This document shows, piece after piece, positions 25,718-34,511 of a DNA stretch of 43,447 bases. Source of the DNA: Fidelibacterota bacterium (lineage in GTDB: Bacteria; Fidelibacterota; Marinisomatia; Marinisomatales; Marinisomataceae). The position numbers and the translations under genes were made by a program. The notes beneath the pieces were generated by a model that searched no databases, had not been told where the DNA came from, and saw only the letters and a program-made list of their open reading frames with translations. The stretch's first letter is position 1; each line of letters starts with the position of its first letter. Location: positions 21,982 through 65,428 of the forward strand of contig NZWP01000022.1 in the NCBI GenBank assembly GCA_002701645.1, written 5' to 3'.

Positions 25718-27072
25718 AACCATCAATCAGCCGCCGAGACTTTGTTAAAACAACTACAATGGCTGGGGTTGCCGCATCTATAGCACCAACTATTCTATTT
25801 GGTAGTCCTTCTCAAAGATTGCAAGTAGGGATAATTGGCACAGGATTTCGTGGTCAATGGGTTTCACAACTTTTGTTGAACCGTCCCGATGTGGACATTC
25901 CTGTAATTTGTGATATTGATGATATTATGATTGAAAGAGTTTTAAAAATCTTTGAAAAAGCTAATCGTCCTTTGCCAAAAATATACAAAAATGGTCCAGA
26001 AGATTTTCGAAACATGGTTGCAAACGAAGACTTAGATGGAGTATATATTGCTACCCCATGGGAATGGCACCATCCTATGGCTGTTGCCGCCATGAAAAAT
26101 AATATTCATGTAGGCACAGAGGTTCCAGCAGCCCTTACCGTTAAAGAGTGTTGGGATTTGGTTAATATATCTGAAAAAACCGGCAAACTGTGTATGATTA
26201 TGGAAAACGTAAACTATCGAAGAGATGTTATGGCGGTTCTCAATATGGTTCGTCAAGGACTATTTGGCGAGCTGCTTCACTGTCAAGGCGGATATCAGCA
26301 TGATTTACGGCATGTGAAATTTAATGATGGTGTTGGCGCCTATGGGGGTGGTGTAGAATTTGGTGATAAAGGTTTTTCAGAAGCACGATGGAGAACACAA
26401 CACTCTGTAGATCGTAACGCTGATCTTTATCCTACCCACGGACTAGGGCCTGTAAGCACCATGTTAGACATTAATCGTGGCAACAGAATGCTTTCCCTCA
26501 CCTCTACAGCAACCCAGTCCCGCGGACTTCATAAGTATATTGTAGACTTGGGAGGGGAAAATCATCCCAATGCAAAAATAGATTTTAAGTTAGGCGACAT
26601 AGTTACAACAGTTATTAAGTGTGCCAAAGGACAAACAGTTGTACTAAGCCACGATACAAATTCACCTAGACCGTATTCTTTAAATTTTCGCGTTCAAGGT
26701 ACTCAAGGACTGTGGATGAAAGACAACCGTTCTATTTATATAGAAGGCACAAGCCCAAGCGAACATCAATGGGAATCAGATGAAGAGTATTTAAAAAAAT
26801 ATGACCACCCTCTTTGGAAAAAATTTGAAGATCAAGCCGCTGGCTCAGGCCATGGAGGCATGGATTTTTTTATTGTCCGCGCATTTATAGAAGCACTAAA
26901 AGACAACCAAACACCGGTAATTGATGTCTATGATGCTGTCAGTATGAGCGTAATAGTTCCTTTGTCAGAAAAATCCATTAAACTAAATAGCACTGCAGTG
27001 AAAATTCCTGATTTTACACGAGGGAAATGGAAAACAAATCCACCTATTTTTGGTTTAGATGAAAGATATTAA
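25714..27072 (+). CDS. Gfo/Idh/MocA-family protein with TAT signal, GH109-like
   Basis: SRRDFVKTTTMAGVAAS twin-arginine signal; VGIIGTGFRGQ Rossmann motif; GVYIATPWEWHHPMAVAAMKNNIHVGTEVPAALTVKECW; YPTHGLGPVSTMLDINRGNRM; VPDFTRGxW-like PDFTRGKWKTNPP. Confidence 0.87.
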   Translation: MKPSISRRDFVKTTTMAGVAASIAPTILFGSPSQRLQVGIIGTGFRGQWVSQLLLNRPDVDIPVICDIDDIMIERVLKIFEKANRPLPKIYKNGPEDFRNMVANEDLDGVYIATPWEWHHPMAVAAMKNNIHVGTEVPAALTVKECWDLVNISEKTGKLCMIMENVNYRRDVMAVLNMVRQGLFGELLHCQGGYQHDLRHVKFNDGVGAYGGGVEFGDKGFSEARWRTQHSVDRNADLYPTHGLGPVSTMLDINRGNRMLSLTSTATQSRGLHKYIVDLGGENHPNAKIDFKLGDIVTTVIKCAKGQTVVLSHDTNSPRPYSLNFRVQGTQGLWMKDNRSIYIEGTSPSEHQWESDEEYLKKYDHPLWKKFEDQAAGSGHGGMDFFIVRAFIEALKDNQTPVIDVYDAVSMSVIVPLSEKSIKLNSTAVKIPDFTRGKWKTNPPIFGLDERY

Positions 27073-28806
27073 ATGATTTTATCTCCATTGGATTGGGCCA
27101 TTGTTTCCGCCTATTTGCTATTTTCGCTTATTGTGGGTATTTGGGCCTCAAAACAAGCTGGCCACGATACAAAATCATTTTTTTTAGCTGGTAGAAATAT
27201 GCCTTGGTGGCTTTTGGGTATTAGTATGGTAGCAACTACATTTTCTACGGATACGCCAAACCTAGTAACAGACCTGGTCCGCAGAAACGGTGTAGCAGGA
27301 AACTGGACTTGGTGGGCGTTTTTGTTGACCGGCATGTTAACAGTTTTTGTATATGCCAAGCTTTGGCGACGCTCTGGCGTGCTTACTGATATTGAATTTT
27401 ATGAACTTCGTTATAGTGGAAAAGCTGCAACTTTTCTACGAGGATTCCGTGCTTTGTATTTAGGGTTGGTTTTTAATGTTTTGGTGATGGGTGCCGTCAG
27501 TTTAGCGGCTGTAAAGTTTGGTGAGATTGTGTTAGGCCTCCCTGGATGGATAACGCTTTGTATCGCTTGTTCCGTTACGTTAATATATTCGACATTAGGA
27601 GGGCTTAAAGCTGTTATTATTACAGACTTTGTTCAATTTGCCATAGCTATGATTGGTTCAATCTGGGGGATGCTTTATATTGTTAGATTGCCAGAAGTTG
27701 GAGGGTTGTCCAAACTAATTTCGCACCCAAACGTAATTGACAAGATCGCATTAATCCCTGATTTATCTGATCCAAACCTATGGGTTCCAGTGTTATTGAT
27801 TCCTTTATCGGTGCAATGGTGGGCCAGCTATTATCCTGGTGCGGAACCTGGTGGTGGCGGATACATTGCCCAGCGTATGTTTTCTGCTAAAGACGAATCC
27901 AATGCTGTTAAAGCTACTTTTCTATTCAATGTAGCTCATTATGCTTTGCGCCCGTGGCCATGGATTCTTATAGCCTTATCATCTCTTATTATTTTTCCAG
28001 AACTAACTGATATCCAAACTGCATTTCCTACTCTTTCCAGTGATAAACTTGGTCATGATGTGGCTTACCCCGCTATGCTTACTTTGTTGCCGCCAGGGCT
28101 TTTAGGATTGGTTGTTGCATCGCTTATTGCTGCTTTTATGAGCACCATGTCTACCCAATTAAATTTAGGCGCCAGCTACTTGGTAAATGATTTTTATCAT
28201 CGGTTTATTAATCCTGATGCATCAGAAAAACAATTGGTCCTAGCTGGACGACTGTTTACGGTAATTTCTGTCTTTTTAGGTGGCGGGCTAGGCCTGTTGC
28301 TCACCAGCGCTGGACAAGCCTTTACACTATTACTTATGATAGGTGCTGGTACGGGTCTCATTTATATCTTGCGGTGGTTTTGGTGGCGAATTAATGCCTA
28401 CACTGAAATCGTTGCAATGATTAGTTCGATTGTTATTGCAGGATATTTTAATTTTGTTAACACAGGACTAGAAGATTGGGAAAAAATTACTATTGGTGCA
28501 GCGCTTACTACTGTTGTTTGGCTGCTTGCAACCTATTTGACGCCACCAGACAATGAAGAAACATTACGAAACTTTGTAAAAAAAGTTAATCCTGGTGGCC
28601 CTGGATGGGCAAAATATACCGATGAAACTCCAGAGGAACCTTGGCCAGTTCCAAATGGAATCCTTTGTATGGTGTTGGGTTGTATAGCCACCTACAGCTT
28701 TCTTTTAGGCGTCGGCCAATTAATTTATGGACAAATAGAATTGGGAATCCTAATTTGTAGTCTAGGGCTCATTTCATCTTTCGGCCTATTTAAATTATGG
28801 AAATAA
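27073..28806 (+). CDS. Sodium:solute symporter (SSS) family transporter
   Basis: KSFFLAGRNMPWWLLGISMVATTFSTDTPNLV; IAAFMSTMSTQLNLGASYLVNDFYHRFI. Confidence 0.92.
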   Translation: MILSPLDWAIVSAYLLFSLIVGIWASKQAGHDTKSFFLAGRNMPWWLLGISMVATTFSTDTPNLVTDLVRRNGVAGNWTWWAFLLTGMLTVFVYAKLWRRSGVLTDIEFYELRYSGKAATFLRGFRALYLGLVFNVLVMGAVSLAAVKFGEIVLGLPGWITLCIACSVTLIYSTLGGLKAVIITDFVQFAIAMIGSIWGMLYIVRLPEVGGLSKLISHPNVIDKIALIPDLSDPNLWVPVLLIPLSVQWWASYYPGAEPGGGGYIAQRMFSAKDESNAVKATFLFNVAHYALRPWPWILIALSSLIIFPELTDIQTAFPTLSSDKLGHDVAYPAMLTLLPPGLLGLVVASLIAAFMSTMSTQLNLGASYLVNDFYHRFINPDASEKQLVLAGRLFTVISVFLGGGLGLLLTSAGQAFTLLLMIGAGTGLIYILRWFWWRINAYTEIVAMISSIVIAGYFNFVNTGLEDWEKITIGAALTTVVWLLATYLTPPDNEETLRNFVKKVNPGGPGWAKYTDETPEEPWPVPNGILCMVLGCIATYSFLLGVGQLIYGQIELGILICSLGLISSFGLFKLWK

Positions 28807-29849
28807 CTACTCCAGGGCGAATTTGTCTTTTCGGTGAACACTCCGATTATTTGGGGTTGCCCATTATTGCAATGGCCATTTCTTTGCGCGCCAAAATTTC
28901 AGGACACAAAAGAACCGATAATCAAGTGATCATTCATCAACCCGACATCAATGAAACAGAAACATTTTCCCTCGAGGATTTACGTTACACTAAATCCCGC
29001 GACTATTTCAAAAGTTGCATTAAGACATGTCAAAATGAAGGGCTTATTTTTTCATCTGGTTTTGAATGTGAGGTGAGCAGCCAAATACCTATTCGTGCAG
29101 GCGCTAGTAGTTCATCTGCTATTAATGTGAGTTGGATTCATTTTTTGTCTAAAATGGCTGATAATCCTATTGAATGGACACAAGAAAAAATTGGAGAATT
29201 AACTTATCAAGCAGAATCAACCGAATTCAATGAACCGGGCGGTATGATGGATCAATATACAACTGCTATGGGCCACATTATACATTTGGAGTCAGAACCA
29301 AATATCTCCATCCAATCGTTAAACCCAAAATTGGGCTCATTTGTGTTGGGAGATTCAGACCAGCCGAAAGACACAATGGGAATTTTAAAACGCTTAAATG
29401 ATTCGCGAGTAGAAATACTAAATACATTACGAACCAAAAATCCAACAATTAATATCCATACGATGAATAATGACATTAATCTTTCTGATTTAAATAATGA
29501 ACAAAGAAAGATGTACAAGGGAACAGTTCAAAATAGAAACTTGCTGCAAAAAGCATTAGTAGAGCTAGAAAAAAATAAGCCAAACTATGAATTAATTGGT
29601 ACGCTTCTTACCGAACTTCATGTGGTGCTAAGAGATATATTTGATATAAGTACCCCTAAAATTGAATCGATGCTTGATGCAGCAATGAATGCAGGCGCCT
29701 TGGGAGGGAAAATTACTGGATCAGGTGGTGGTGGTTGTATGTTTGCTTACGCGCCAGACCATCCAGAAAAAGTTGCTGAAGCCATCGAACAAGCAGGAGG
29801 AAAAGCATATATTGTTTATTCAGATGATGGCACACGGTATAAAAAATAA
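28797..29849 (+). CDS. GHMP-family sugar kinase (galactokinase-like)
   Basis: TTPGRICLFGEHSDYLGLPIIAMAI, IPIRAGASSSSAINVSW, EFNEPGGMMDQYT, GGKITGSGGGGCMFAY. Confidence 0.9.
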   Translation: MEITTPGRICLFGEHSDYLGLPIIAMAISLRAKISGHKRTDNQVIIHQPDINETETFSLEDLRYTKSRDYFKSCIKTCQNEGLIFSSGFECEVSSQIPIRAGASSSSAINVSWIHFLSKMADNPIEWTQEKIGELTYQAESTEFNEPGGMMDQYTTAMGHIIHLESEPNISIQSLNPKLGSFVLGDSDQPKDTMGILKRLNDSRVEILNTLRTKNPTINIHTMNNDINLSDLNNEQRKMYKGTVQNRNLLQKALVELEKNKPNYELIGTLLTELHVVLRDIFDISTPKIESMLDAAMNAGALGGKITGSGGGGCMFAYAPDHPEKVAEAIEQAGGKAYIVYSDDGTRYKK

Positions 29850-29861
29850 AATTGCTATTTT

Positions 29862-30089
29862 TCACTCATCTCTATCATCTTTTTTTTCTGCATTATCAAT
29901 CCAAGCACTAAAACCTGATGGCTTTCTCTTTGCTTCGCTTTTCTTAGATCTCTTCGCCCAATCAATCATCCATTGTCCTTTTGTCTTTCCGTTCTTTTCC
30001 TCATAATATTCTACACAGTCATAAAAGTCATTATGTTCAGGAGTTCCCTCAAAACCGCATGTGCAATTTTTAGTCATTTTTTTAAACAA
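29862..30089 (-). CDS. Small hypothetical protein (75 aa)
   Basis: CTCGFEGTPEHNDFYDCVEYYEEKNGKTKGQWMIDWAKRSKKSEAKRKPSG; overlaps the end of the adjacent ORF. Confidence 0.55.
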   Translation of the reverse strand: MFKKMTKNCTCGFEGTPEHNDFYDCVEYYEEKNGKTKGQWMIDWAKRSKKSEAKRKPSGFSAWIDNAEKKDDRDE

Positions 30090-31372
30090 GACATTAGGTG
30101 TTCATATAACATTAACATTGCCAATGTATCTAACTCGCAATAGTTAAGCAAACCCTTTCTTAGTCCTTTTTTTTCTGTTTCAGAAATTTGTGAAAATTGT
30201 AATACTTGAAATGCTTTCATTGCACCCGATCCATCCTTCAAAGAATCTTTATGGAAAAGAGCCCTATCTAGGTCTTGAGAAGTTAAATCTTTAAGCTTAG
30301 GCAATATATCATAAGGATCAATTACATTACCGTTGACTTCTTTGAAAAGAATATAATCATTTAAGTTAGTACCAAATGACAAGGGAGTTGAGTATTTGTG
30401 TTTTAAAATTTTGCTTGTTGACATTATTGCTGGTAAAACCGCTTTTAAAGAATTTGATCCATTAGTCAAAGGATGATAATAATTATTTTCCACAAATTTA
30501 CACATATCAACCATAGCTCTTTCTGGCTCATGCTCTCCTCTTGTAAAAGTAATTGAATCAATAAAATCTATTTCATCTTTGAATTTATTTTTATGAGCAA
30601 GCATCCTTTGTTTAGCAGACTTTAATACAGCATTTTCATGATTAGCATACATAAAAATTGTACCGCTATCATTTGATAAAATATTTTTTAGTTCTTTAAC
30701 AAATTGTATAGTAGGATCGATTGGAGACTTATCAGCTAACCATTCAAAATGTTTTATATCACCATTTTCGAACAAAGTATGAATAGAATATTGCGATGCA
30801 ATAACAGCATAAGGAAATTCATTTTTATGAAATGGTAATGGAACAGTACAAGTTTCAAAGTCTATGAAATGTAGAGGAAAATTCCACTCATTCATTATTT
30901 CAAAAATATCATCACTAAACCATTCCGATGCATTTTTTCTTGCTGAAAGTTTTATTTGTAAAGATTGTCTTTTATAACGTTTAGTATCAGGATTTAAAGG
31001 ATTAAGTTTAGGATTATTATGCAAATCTTTAATTGAAAAAATATTTTCGTTAAATAATTCCGGTATTTTATTTTTTGGAAAATTCCAAATAGATGATATG
31101 TAATTTTCACTTTTGCTATAATTTGGAATGATTTCTTGATAGCAAAAAGGACACATAGAACAACATGCTCCAATATCGCTATCAGATTTATCTAAAGATA
31201 CACCGTTTTTATAGGAATCAGATAACTGATGAGCAGACTCAATGAACGTTGAACTATTATCAGTTCCAAACTCAGATAAAGGACGATTTAATAAATCAAA
31301 AAAATTATCATTGCCTAATGGCTGATCATACAAAATTGAGTTTACAACTCTTTTTACATTTACATCCTGCAA
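30074..31372 (-). CDS. DUF2779 C-terminal part, DEDD/RNase H-like exonuclease module (TTG start assumed by the ORF track)
   Basis: HFIDFETCTVPLPFH, GACCSMCPFCYQE cysteine cluster, LNYCELDTLAMLMLYEHL. Confidence 0.75.
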   Translation of the reverse strand: MQDVNVKRVVNSILYDQPLGNDNFFDLLNRPLSEFGTDNSSTFIESAHQLSDSYKNGVSLDKSDSDIGACCSMCPFCYQEIIPNYSKSENYISSIWNFPKNKIPELFNENIFSIKDLHNNPKLNPLNPDTKRYKRQSLQIKLSARKNASEWFSDDIFEIMNEWNFPLHFIDFETCTVPLPFHKNEFPYAVIASQYSIHTLFENGDIKHFEWLADKSPIDPTIQFVKELKNILSNDSGTIFMYANHENAVLKSAKQRMLAHKNKFKDEIDFIDSITFTRGEHEPERAMVDMCKFVENNYYHPLTNGSNSLKAVLPAIMSTSKILKHKYSTPLSFGTNLNDYILFKEVNGNVIDPYDILPKLKDLTSQDLDRALFHKDSLKDGSGAMKAFQVLQFSQISETEKKGLRKGLLNYCELDTLAMLMLYEHLMSCLKK

Positions 31373-31390
31373 TACGGTATCTTTAATTTT

Positions 31391-32056
31391 TTATTTATTT
31401 AGATTTATTTCTTCCTCGTTTACTTCTACCCCTAATCGACTTTCACCATTCTCTGTATCTGTTTTAATAATGGTAAACAGTTGGTTTAGGCCGTCCATAT
31501 TCGTTTCTTTGCTTTTATTTACAAGCATAAGGTATGGTGTAATTGACCATTCAGGAAAAGCCTGAGATGTAACATAAGTTTGGAAGGCAACATCTGCTAA
31601 GTAAGGCCTCCATGTGCTATTGATAGATACGCCAGATTTTTTAAAACTTAAAAAATCATGTTCATCATCTGAAGTGCACGATTTTGCTTTAACTTCAACC
31701 AATTGAATAGTATTCCCTTTTTTAACTAAAACATCTACCCTAATGAAAAAATTATCAAAAGTAATAGCTGGCTCAGCAATTACAACATTCCTATGCTCAA
31801 GGGCTTTATTGGTAGCTTTAATTGACTCTTCATAACCTAGTGAGGTGATATCTACATAATGATATTCTGGAAAGTGAAACTTGTAATAATATTTGGCAAG
31901 CTCACCAACTTGATATCCTCCTTCAGCCAAAATCTCTAAAAATTCATTACCACTGTCTTGATTTTTATAGTCATCATAATAATAAAGTTTTTTTGGACAT
32001 TCGAGACCAATTTTCATTCTTGATTTCGTTAAATAACGTTCTTTACTCTTGCTCAT
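31391..32056 (-). CDS. DUF2779 N-terminal part, Cas4/RecB-like PD-(D/E)XK nuclease module
   Basis: LTKSRMKIGLECPKKLYYYDDYKNQDSGNEFLEILAEGGYQVGELAK; VDVLVKKGNTIQLVEVKAKS. Confidence 0.75.
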   Translation of the reverse strand: MSKSKERYLTKSRMKIGLECPKKLYYYDDYKNQDSGNEFLEILAEGGYQVGELAKYYYKFHFPEYHYVDITSLGYEESIKATNKALEHRNVVIAEPAITFDNFFIRVDVLVKKGNTIQLVEVKAKSCTSDDEHDFLSFKKSGVSINSTWRPYLADVAFQTYVTSQAFPEWSITPYLMLVNKSKETNMDGLNQLFTIIKTDTENGESRLGVEVNEEEINLNK

Positions 32057-32600
32057 CTGGATTATTAATATCTTTTTTTTGATAAATTATCTTACCAAAT
32101 CTTTTGATTTGTTCTAGTTGTATAGCAATAGTTTGTAAATCAGCTTCAACTTCGTCTTCTAAATCATCTTCTCCAAAAATATCTCTTGTTTGCTGAATCC
32201 ATAATCCACGATCTTCATTAACTTGTTCATCTGGATAGTGGGATACATCTTTCCAATCTTCAAGAATTTCATCAAGAATTTCTTTTTTTGTCATATCAGC
32301 TATTCCATACTCTGAGGACATAAGATTTCGCCATACTTCAATGATTGAATCTTTAGGAACTTTTGCCTTTTTACTGTCCCCGACATATTCGATTTTAGGA
32401 TTTCTTTTCACAGAATAAAGCCAACCTTCTTCCCTTTTAATATTTAACTCAGCAACCATAGGAGCTTTATATCCTTTGGATTTTGGGCCCATTGTAGTTT
32501 CATACAAGTTTCCATCAGCTCCTATGTAATACAACTTTCCTAATTCTGGTGTATGATCAGTTTTTAAAACAAATTCTTCTACTCTGTATCGGTGTTCCAT
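32043..32600 (-). CDS. Hypothetical acidic protein (185 aa)
   Basis: Single long ORF overlapping the next gene start by 14 nt. Confidence 0.6.
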   Translation of the reverse strand: MEHRYRVEEFVLKTDHTPELGKLYYIGADGNLYETTMGPKSKGYKAPMVAELNIKREEGWLYSVKRNPKIEYVGDSKKAKVPKDSIIEVWRNLMSSEYGIADMTKKEILDEILEDWKDVSHYPDEQVNEDRGLWIQQTRDIFGEDDLEDEVEADLQTIAIQLEQIKRFGKIIYQKKDINNPDEQE

Positions 32601-32658
32601 CTTATTTTATTTCATATTCCTTTTCTATCTTAGTTAAAAATATCATACAATTCTCTCT

Positions 32659-33042
32659 TTATCTAGTATCTAAAAATCTATTTAAACCGTAATCAATATT
32701 ATCTGGCAAACGATTCAAAGAAAAATAACCCCAATCTGTGTGTTCTTTATTTATTATTGGAATAATTTTGATATCAGAGTGATAATGATAGATATATAAA
32801 ATAGATCCTGTTTTGTTTTTAGTACGATGCAAAAATCTGATATTGTTTTTAATTTCTAATTGTGTTTCTTCTTTCAGCTCTCTAAGCATACCTTCATAAG
32901 CTGATTCGCCTTCTTTAATATGTCCTTTAGGAATAGCCCATGTCCCCTGAGGTCGCTGTAGAAGTAATATTTTTTCCTCAAATTCAATAATGATACCCGC
33001 TGTTTCATTGGTATCATTTTTATCTATATCATCATATCTCAC
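32659..33042 (-). CDS. NUDIX hydrolase
   Basis: Nudix box GHIKEGESAYEGMLRELKEETQLEI. Confidence 0.93.
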   Translation of the reverse strand: MRYDDIDKNDTNETAGIIIEFEEKILLLQRPQGTWAIPKGHIKEGESAYEGMLRELKEETQLEIKNNIRFLHRTKNKTGSILYIYHYHSDIKIIPIINKEHTDWGYFSLNRLPDNIDYGLNRFLDTR

Positions 33043-33120
33043 TTACTCTAATTCAATTCTTCCTTTATTTCTTCCGTCTCTCACTCTTTGTAATTATGGA
33101 TGGACTACTTCTCCATTTAT

Positions 33121-33504
33121 TTAATAAGATTCCTCTTTATCATATGATGATGCAGAGTGAACATACTGATTTTCACAATATAAGTAAGTGGTGTTAATAA
33201 AATATTCACATGTACACCCTTCTTCGCAATCATCACAATCATCTTCCTTTAACTCTTCTGTATATAGCTCTGCTTCTTCTTTATTCAAATCTGCTTCTTT
33301 TTGTGATAAAATTGAAGCAAAAGCATCCCAATCTCCGGCATCTATGCGACCTATCTCTTCTAAATTGTCGCTATTTTCATTTAGTAAGTCTTCTTTGTTA
33401 ATATTAAAAATTAAAATTTCTTTATAAAGATTATCAGTAAAGCCACCTAGATCAAATGTCCAATAATCAATATCAATATCGTCTAAATTTAATTTTTCAC
33501 TCAT
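33121..33504 (-). CDS. Hypothetical very acidic, Cys-containing protein (127 aa)
   Basis: LKEDDCDDCEEGCTCEYF; many D/E residues. Confidence 0.55.
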   Translation of the reverse strand: MSEKLNLDDIDIDYWTFDLGGFTDNLYKEILIFNINKEDLLNENSDNLEEIGRIDAGDWDAFASILSQKEADLNKEEAELYTEELKEDDCDDCEEGCTCEYFINTTYLYCENQYVHSASSYDKEESY

Positions 33505-33611
33505 TTCTCACTCCTTTATATTGATTCTATATAAGTTTACGATATTTTTGAAGATGTGTGGTAGAAAAAAGAGTATGGATAAGGTAAAAAATACTATGTT
33601 GTCGACGAGTG

Positions 33612-33697
33612 CGGAGAGAGAGGGATTCGAACCCTCGATACAATTGCTCGTATAACACCTTATTATGTTGCCAATCCAAATCTACCCATCATCCCGG
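33612..33697 (-). pseudogene. Decayed tRNA-Ser copy or att-like remnant
   Basis: 32 bp identical to the tRNA-Ser 3' end (33611-33642 = 34424-34455), plus shared cgtataacacctta; no indel (constant offset 813); 5' half diverged. Confidence 0.8.
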
Positions 33698-33701
33698 AAA
33701 C

Positions 33702-33723
33702 AAAAAACCCCACGAATGTGTGG
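33702..33723 (-). terminator. Possible weak terminator
   Basis: Minus strand CCAC-ACATTC-GTGG followed by GGTTTTTT; short stem. Confidence 0.3.
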
Positions 33724-33766
33724 CTTGATGTTGTATAATTAGTTAGGCTTATCTATGGTGCCTTTA

Positions 33767-34321
33767 TTAACATTTATTTTCTATTCTCTGAATCCATTCT
33801 TTATCATCCGGGAATCCATAATTTTTATCATCTAAATAACCTAGAAAATTCTCGTAATCCTCTGAACTTGAGCATAATTCTTCCATAAATTGAAGAGCTT
33901 CCTTGTTGATAGGTTTTAAAACTTTATTAAATCCTTTATATTTTTCATCTTCTTCATTAAAAAATGGTGTATACCAATCTTCCATATGATTGTAAGCGCA
34001 TTCTTCAGGACTATCCCACAATCCGTGATTATCTTCACCATCAGCAAAATCTTCAGAAATCTTTTCAAATCCCTTATAATGAACTCTACCAAACCACTCA
34101 TAATCTGAAGTGTGTTCTGATATAGTTTCAGAAATTTTAACATAATTATCCAAATGGACAGCTGCATCTTCAGCTCTGCGTAACAATTCAATTGCTGCTT
34201 TTTCATCATATTCAAATAAAGCATCTGCTAACGAAGGTATTTCGTTAAAATCTTCATCGTCATTAAGATTAGATATCTTTAAAAGCAGTTCATCTTTTGT
34301 CATTTTATTTCTCCTTTTCAT
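33767..34321 (-). CDS. Hypothetical acidic protein (184 aa)
   Basis: Sole long ORF between the tRNA-Ser and its decayed copy; aggagaaa upstream of the start. Confidence 0.6.
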   Translation of the reverse strand: MKRRNKMTKDELLLKISNLNDDEDFNEIPSLADALFEYDEKAAIELLRRAEDAAVHLDNYVKISETISEHTSDYEWFGRVHYKGFEKISEDFADGEDNHGLWDSPEECAYNHMEDWYTPFFNEEDEKYKGFNKVLKPINKEALQFMEELCSSSEDYENFLGYLDDKNYGFPDDKEWIQRIENKC

Positions 34322-34378
34322 TGCTCTTTCAGTTCAGTTTTGGTCATTTCATTGACTTTCTGACACTATTCAATTCCT

Positions 34379-34416
34379 TAAAATTAATCATAATAAATAA
34401 AATTAATCATAATAAA
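34379..34416. repeat. Perfect 19-bp tandem direct repeat x2
   Basis: taaaattaatcataataaa at 34379-34397 and 34398-34416. Confidence 0.9.
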
Positions 34417-34424
34417 GTTTATCG

Positions 34425-34511
34425 CGGAGAGAGAGGGATTCGAACCCTCGATACAGTTTCCCGTATAACACCTTAGCAGGGTGCCGCTTTCAACCACTCA
34501 GCCACCTCTCC
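34425..34511 (-). tRNA. tRNA-Ser(GCU)
   Basis: GGAGAGGTGGCTGAGTGGTTGAAAGCGGCACCCTGCTAAGGTGTTATACGGGAAACTGTATCGAGGGTTCGAATCCCTCTCTCTCCG; long variable arm, anticodon GCT. Confidence 0.95.

Follow-up and report, generated by a model that had tools for sequence, protein, structure and literature searches.

In iron-staple nucleases such as Cas4, AddB and DNA2-like enzymes the RecB-type motifs are framed by one cysteine on the N-terminal side and three on the C-terminal side, and replacing these cysteines with alanine rendered Sso0001 insoluble and Bad labile (PMC3466216, PMC7430649). The structure 3L0A has been described as a RecB-like nuclease with four cysteines arranged around zinc (PMC3466216). 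DUF2779 proteins have been placed as family F.17 in the 3′-5′ exonuclease clade of the RNase H-like superfamily, where they co-occur with, or contain, the PD-(D/E)XK-like domain DUF83 (PMC3985635). Here we describe a member of this family encoded on the minus strand at positions 30074-32056 of a 43,447-nucleotide stretch of DNA (“the window”) from the genome of a marine Marinimicrobia bacterium (720,841 bases in 23 contigs, 81% complete). Like the iron-staple nucleases Cas4, AddB, DNA2 and Bad, it has D, E-x-K and Q motifs with a single cysteine N-terminal and three cysteines C-terminal to them, but it differs in having neither cas neighbours nor a helicase domain, in being fused to a DEDDy exonuclease and in being broken. 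With the DUF2779 (PF11074) family it has in common a two-domain architecture and conserved DEDDy residues; in contrast to its relatives, its frame is broken by one TAA, and the spacing of its last cysteines is shorter than in long-form members.

A single in-frame stop codon interrupts the gene

Translation of the locus gave 221 codons, one TAA and 438 open codons ending in TGA, which bears out the first-pass annotation of the window in joining the minus-strand ORFs 31391-32056 and 30074-31390 into a single reading frame with one TAA at 31391-31393 (codon 222 in the read-through frame). The upstream part (221 amino acids; 31394..32056, minus strand) holds most of a PD-(D/E)XK nuclease domain, including C20, D108, E121-x-K123 and Q159, and the downstream part (438 codons; 30077..31390, minus strand) holds the end of that domain with three cysteines, followed by the DUF2779/DEDDy exonuclease domain. 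The frame contains no second stop and no frameshift; the TAA is flanked by runs of A and is a substitution, not a homopolymer indel. Neither an ATG nor a ribosome-binding site was found at the junction. The nearest common alternative start past the stop is a TTG at 31370..31372 (minus strand), 18 nt beyond the TAA, a candidate reinitiation site that lacks a Shine-Dalgarno sequence, as do most start sites in the window. In the downstream part no in-frame ATG occurs before codon 79 (31156-31154), in agreement with the earlier remark that none lies near the junction, and the ATG at 30895 adjoins the DEDDy domain.

A shared frame is by itself uninformative and proves nothing about there being one gene: in four other neighbouring ORF pairs of the window (≥100 amino acids) both members lie in one frame, separated by a single stop, and all of these are ordinary, separate genes. 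That the two nuclease halves belong to one gene, beyond chance, follows from relatives in the phylum, which are single open frames spanning both. A PF11074 profile search of 245 genomes of the phylum recovered 20 genes in 17 genomes, 18 of them single open frames of 461-782 amino acids without an internal stop; the two exceptions were the window gene and a gene in genome G008, whose contig begins inside the gene. Long-form relatives aligned with both halves of the window gene, and the possibility that the two ORFs are unrelated genes elsewhere was contradicted by all 18 intact frames. At the position of the stop, which is variable in the family, the relatives have N, E, D, V, A or a gap, and a TAA in none of the 18 that can be read there. 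The G008 gene is the closest relative by sequence (84% amino acid identity over 272 codons), and its contig starts 166 codons past the stop, leaving the junction unreadable in it.

The stop codon lies inside the first nuclease domain

Assignment of the protein to DUF2779, already suspected in the first reading, was upheld by a match of the downstream part to PF11074 (E = 2.2e-23, 83.3 bits against a curated cut-off of 23.3 bits; residues 174-314 of the downstream part). In an alignment of 21 sequences, D399, E401 and E474 were invariant and Y639 and D643 nearly so; we take D399/E401 (DFE), E474 (motif II) and Y639/D643 (Y-x3-D) to be the acidic motifs of a DEDDy exonuclease. The upstream part itself matched no Pfam family, and intact relatives matched Cas4 profiles weakly (L019, residues 14-218, E = 1.1e-4; L018, residues 18-275, E = 6.7e-3). 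Positions equivalent to the stop (∼169 in L019 and ∼209 in L018) both fall inside the Cas4-like match. Across 18 aligned sequences C20, D108, E121, K123, Q159, C299, C302 and C305 were invariant (window read-through numbering); with one cysteine ahead of the D, E-x-K and Q motifs and three behind them, this is the pattern of a putative iron-staple nuclease. The cluster CCSMCPFC (31129..31162, minus strand) supplies C299, C302 and C305, which with C20 make up the presumed set of staple ligands, and the four together are expected to hold an Fe-S (or Zn) staple. The last three cysteines are spaced C-x2-C-x2-C in the window and C-x2-C-x13-19-C in long-form relatives, the intervening loop being missing.

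Because C20 and the cysteine cluster beyond the stop form one four-cysteine pattern, codon 222 lies inside the PD-(D/E)XK domain. Where the first-pass annotation had put the stop between the two domains, both this pattern and the span of the Cas4 profile place it within the first; the cysteine cluster, which had been counted with the exonuclease, likewise belongs with C20 to the first nuclease. Its recognition of a Cas4/RecB-like and a DEDD-like part was sound, the catalytic motifs and the DEDDy residues both being conserved in the alignments. Judged by these residues, the protein is a DUF2779 nuclease with a predicted Cas4/AddB-type PD-(D/E)XK domain and a predicted DEDDy-type exonuclease domain. 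The TAA divides the four invariant cysteines, with C20 before it and C299, C302 and C305 after it, so that the four do not stand in one polypeptide in this genome; by cutting the first nuclease domain, it leaves an upstream product without three of the four predicted metal ligands.

An AlphaFold2 model of the read-through protein, with the TAA read as Q and 21 sequences as input, had a mean pLDDT of 84.2 and a pTM of 0.84. In this full model the blocks covering residues 211-240 around the stop averaged 90-93 (∼92 near residue 222), residues 221-225 forming a short helix and 229-233 a strand; when residues 1-350 were modelled alone, the same blocks scored 79-92, with about 79-86 around residue 222. 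A fold search with the whole read-through model returned weak matches only, and the family profile, run against the sequences of solved structures, returned nothing relevant. The model of the nuclease domain matched 3L0A, Cas4 complexes and MGME1 with probabilities of 0.95-0.96 for the top matches, E-values of at least 1.6e-3 and low TM-scores. The best of these, 3L0A (probability 0.96, E = 1.6e-3, TM-scores 0.28/0.35), is a putative exonuclease of Eubacterium rectale (DUF3799) whose resemblance to the modelled domain is one of general fold only. As model-based matches they lend support to the Cas4/AddB-type reading and are not decisive for it.

Neither half shows decay

Over the last 272 codons, the comparable downstream stretch, dN and dS between the window gene and its G008 relative were 0.086 and 1.42 (NG86) or 0.083 and 0.61 (LWL85). 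The dN/dS of this half, a check proposed at first reading, was ∼0.06 for those 272 codons, the 166 codons directly past the stop having no close relative. In a tree of the same stretch the window branch (0.110 substitutions per site) was not clearly faster than that of G008 (0.082). With genome G005 as outgroup, nine derived changes fell to the window and eight to G008, and no significant imbalance was seen with any of nine outgroups. In partitioned trees the window branch did not exceed that of the intact G005 gene in length for the downstream stretches, and for the upstream half it was the shorter of the two. The single lesion, the low dN/dS and the lack of significant rate imbalance do not fit an old pseudogene.

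These results uphold the earlier statements that the halves are otherwise intact and that, with no second stop, frameshift or decay, any disruption would have to be recent. As a clock for the stop, decay of the downstream half was uninformative, since the counts give no useful lower bound on its age, nor do they tell a young stop apart from continued constraint on the downstream gene. Given no decay and no second lesion, the stop is recent unless the downstream part remains under constraint. Taken together, the substitution patterns show no long neutral period; they fit if the stop is recent, if it is a sequence error or if selection still acts on the downstream gene.

An accessory gene in a variable island

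Within the genus, 3 of 24 genomes had a match, and the three genomes closest by Obg (99, 94 and 89% identity) yielded no copy of the nuclease gene; the gene is accessory. Two queries of viral contigs and a search of phage records yielded no relatives, and plasmid records yielded 25 distant ones, annotated as DUF2779 proteins, with at most 39% identity among the matches listed. No window protein matched a PADLOC model.

The gene is flanked on one side by tRNA-Ser(GCT) (34424..34511, minus strand) and a conserved block containing Obg, and on the other by transporter and kinase-like genes. The tRNA forms the conserved edge of a variable island: in genome G023 (Obg 94%), the gene ending at 27072 is followed by ∼0.4 kb and then the tRNA, 27073-34423 being absent, and in G014 (Obg 99%) the 756 bases available next to the tRNA are different DNA. 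A partial second copy of the tRNA-Ser 3′ end (33611..33672, minus strand; 62 nt, 89% identical) resembles an attachment-site scar. This copy, which corresponds to 34424-34485 of the intact gene, lies 813 bp away with a gene for a 184-amino-acid protein between the two, and a perfect tandem duplication of a 19-bp AT-rich unit occupies 34379-34416, just outside the tRNA 3′ end. From the duplicated 3′ end, a sign of integration events, the locus looks like a site of repeated integration; no integrase was noticed in the island, which was looked at without a dedicated integrase model. Between the window and G008 the nuclease had a dN of 0.086 against 0.239 for ten neighbouring core genes, which transfer within the genus, or different constraint between genes, would explain. 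It is also worth noting that the Obg match in genome G001 (G001:C3:29573-30550) is reported at 61% identity with 11 internal stops, so that it is a broken copy or else the alignment crosses frames.

Directly 3′ of the nuclease, and sharing an ATGA overlap with its stop, lies a gene for a small cysteine-containing protein of 71 amino acids (MTKNCTCGFEGTP...; 29862..30077, minus strand). A relative (60% identity; L014 792-1007) also stands directly 3′ of the nuclease in G008, and a partnership of this protein with the nuclease is possible. The genes beyond it differ between the window and G008. On the other side, a gene for a 185-amino-acid protein with an N-terminal YYIxxDGN-type domain (32043..32600, minus strand) overlaps the nuclease start by 14 nt. 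Its N-terminal ∼60 residues (YYIGADGNLY...) resemble an insert in the G005 nuclease (L015 6416-8734; 44% over 57 amino acids) as well as small ORFs in 22 of the 24 genus genomes, and the segment belongs to no Pfam family. The gene directly after the intact relative in G005 is of the GmrSD/DUF262 type (PADLOC HEC-05, E = 2.4e-125), and a KAP-type NTPase gene comes next, a defence-like setting. The whole G005 stretch (L015 1567-12739) runs from an ATP-dependent DNA ligase-like gene through the DUF2779 nuclease and GmrSD/HEC-05 to the KAP NTPase, and a ligase-like ORF, identified by eye, also adjoins the nuclease gene in G024.

Origin of the interruption

The first-pass annotation had left four options side by side, namely nonsense mutation, readthrough, a two-subunit split and sequence error; these can be ranked, with nonsense mutation first, sequence error second, a split third and readthrough last. 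We favour a recent nonsense mutation in an accessory island nuclease gene of this Marinimicrobia (SAR406) lineage, and thus a probable young loss-of-function allele, at a probability of a little under 0.6. An error of sequencing, amplification or assembly, with the real gene an intact open frame, would also account for one changed base in AT-rich surroundings with no other lesion, conserved halves and intact frames in all readable relatives. However, no premature stop was seen in ten genes nearby (2,857 codons) when these were set against the nearest genome, whose DNA differs by 3%, so such errors are not common here, and the stop, although set between runs of A, is a substitution and no homopolymer indel; we regard an error as possible yet unlikely.

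Doubtful, and somewhat more so than an error, is a true split, in which the halves are made separately and reassemble with an Fe-S cluster bridging two polypeptides. The absence of decay in either half is also what a functional split predicts, which counts against the nonsense reading; both halves look intact and are constrained where this could be measured, and a TTG 18 nt past the stop would suit reinitiation where most starts lack a Shine-Dalgarno sequence. Yet no readable relative shows a split, and the junction offers neither an ATG nor a ribosome-binding site. The interrupted segment of the domain is, moreover, predicted with good confidence (pLDDT ∼92 in the full model, ∼79-86 when the domain was modelled alone), and another chain would have to supply the three C-terminal cysteines. 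A natural split iron-staple nuclease in its complete form, with both ORFs translated and a staple built from one cysteine of the first product and three of the second, is improbable. Programmed readthrough yielding some full-length enzyme is in keeping with a frame open on either side, but the stop is conserved in no relative and occupies a variable position in the family, and TAA is normally the tightest stop in bacteria; we consider readthrough very improbable.

Under a recent nonsense mutation, the normal form would most likely be one polypeptide in which a metal-stapled PD-(D/E)XK nuclease is joined to a DEDDy 3′-5′ exonuclease, with the intact enzyme presumably acting on DNA ends or foreign DNA in the proposed role of an accessory, defence- or repair-like nuclease. 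The single nonsense codon would end translation inside the first nuclease domain, stripping the C-terminal end of that domain and everything beyond it from the main product. The upstream product would keep its catalytic residues and lack three of the four staple cysteines; it would probably be unstable, given how Sso0001 became insoluble and Bad labile once staple cysteines were lost. An exonuclease-bearing fragment could arise only by a putative restart at the TTG at 31372 or at an ATG further down, e.g., 30895, such internal initiation being possible because window starts mostly lack a Shine-Dalgarno sequence.

Rather than a new kind of gene, this is most likely a member of a known family affected by a disabling mutation or a sequence error. 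Accessory nuclease genes in variable regions linked to a tRNA commonly end in this way, and the allele is a likely case of young loss of function. What the locus adds is mainly anatomical: in this clade DUF2779 proteins have a Cas4/AddB-like nuclease domain with four cysteines, and the stop lies inside that domain. If both pieces were functional, the locus would serve as a natural experiment on whether two chains can form a metal-stapled nuclease.
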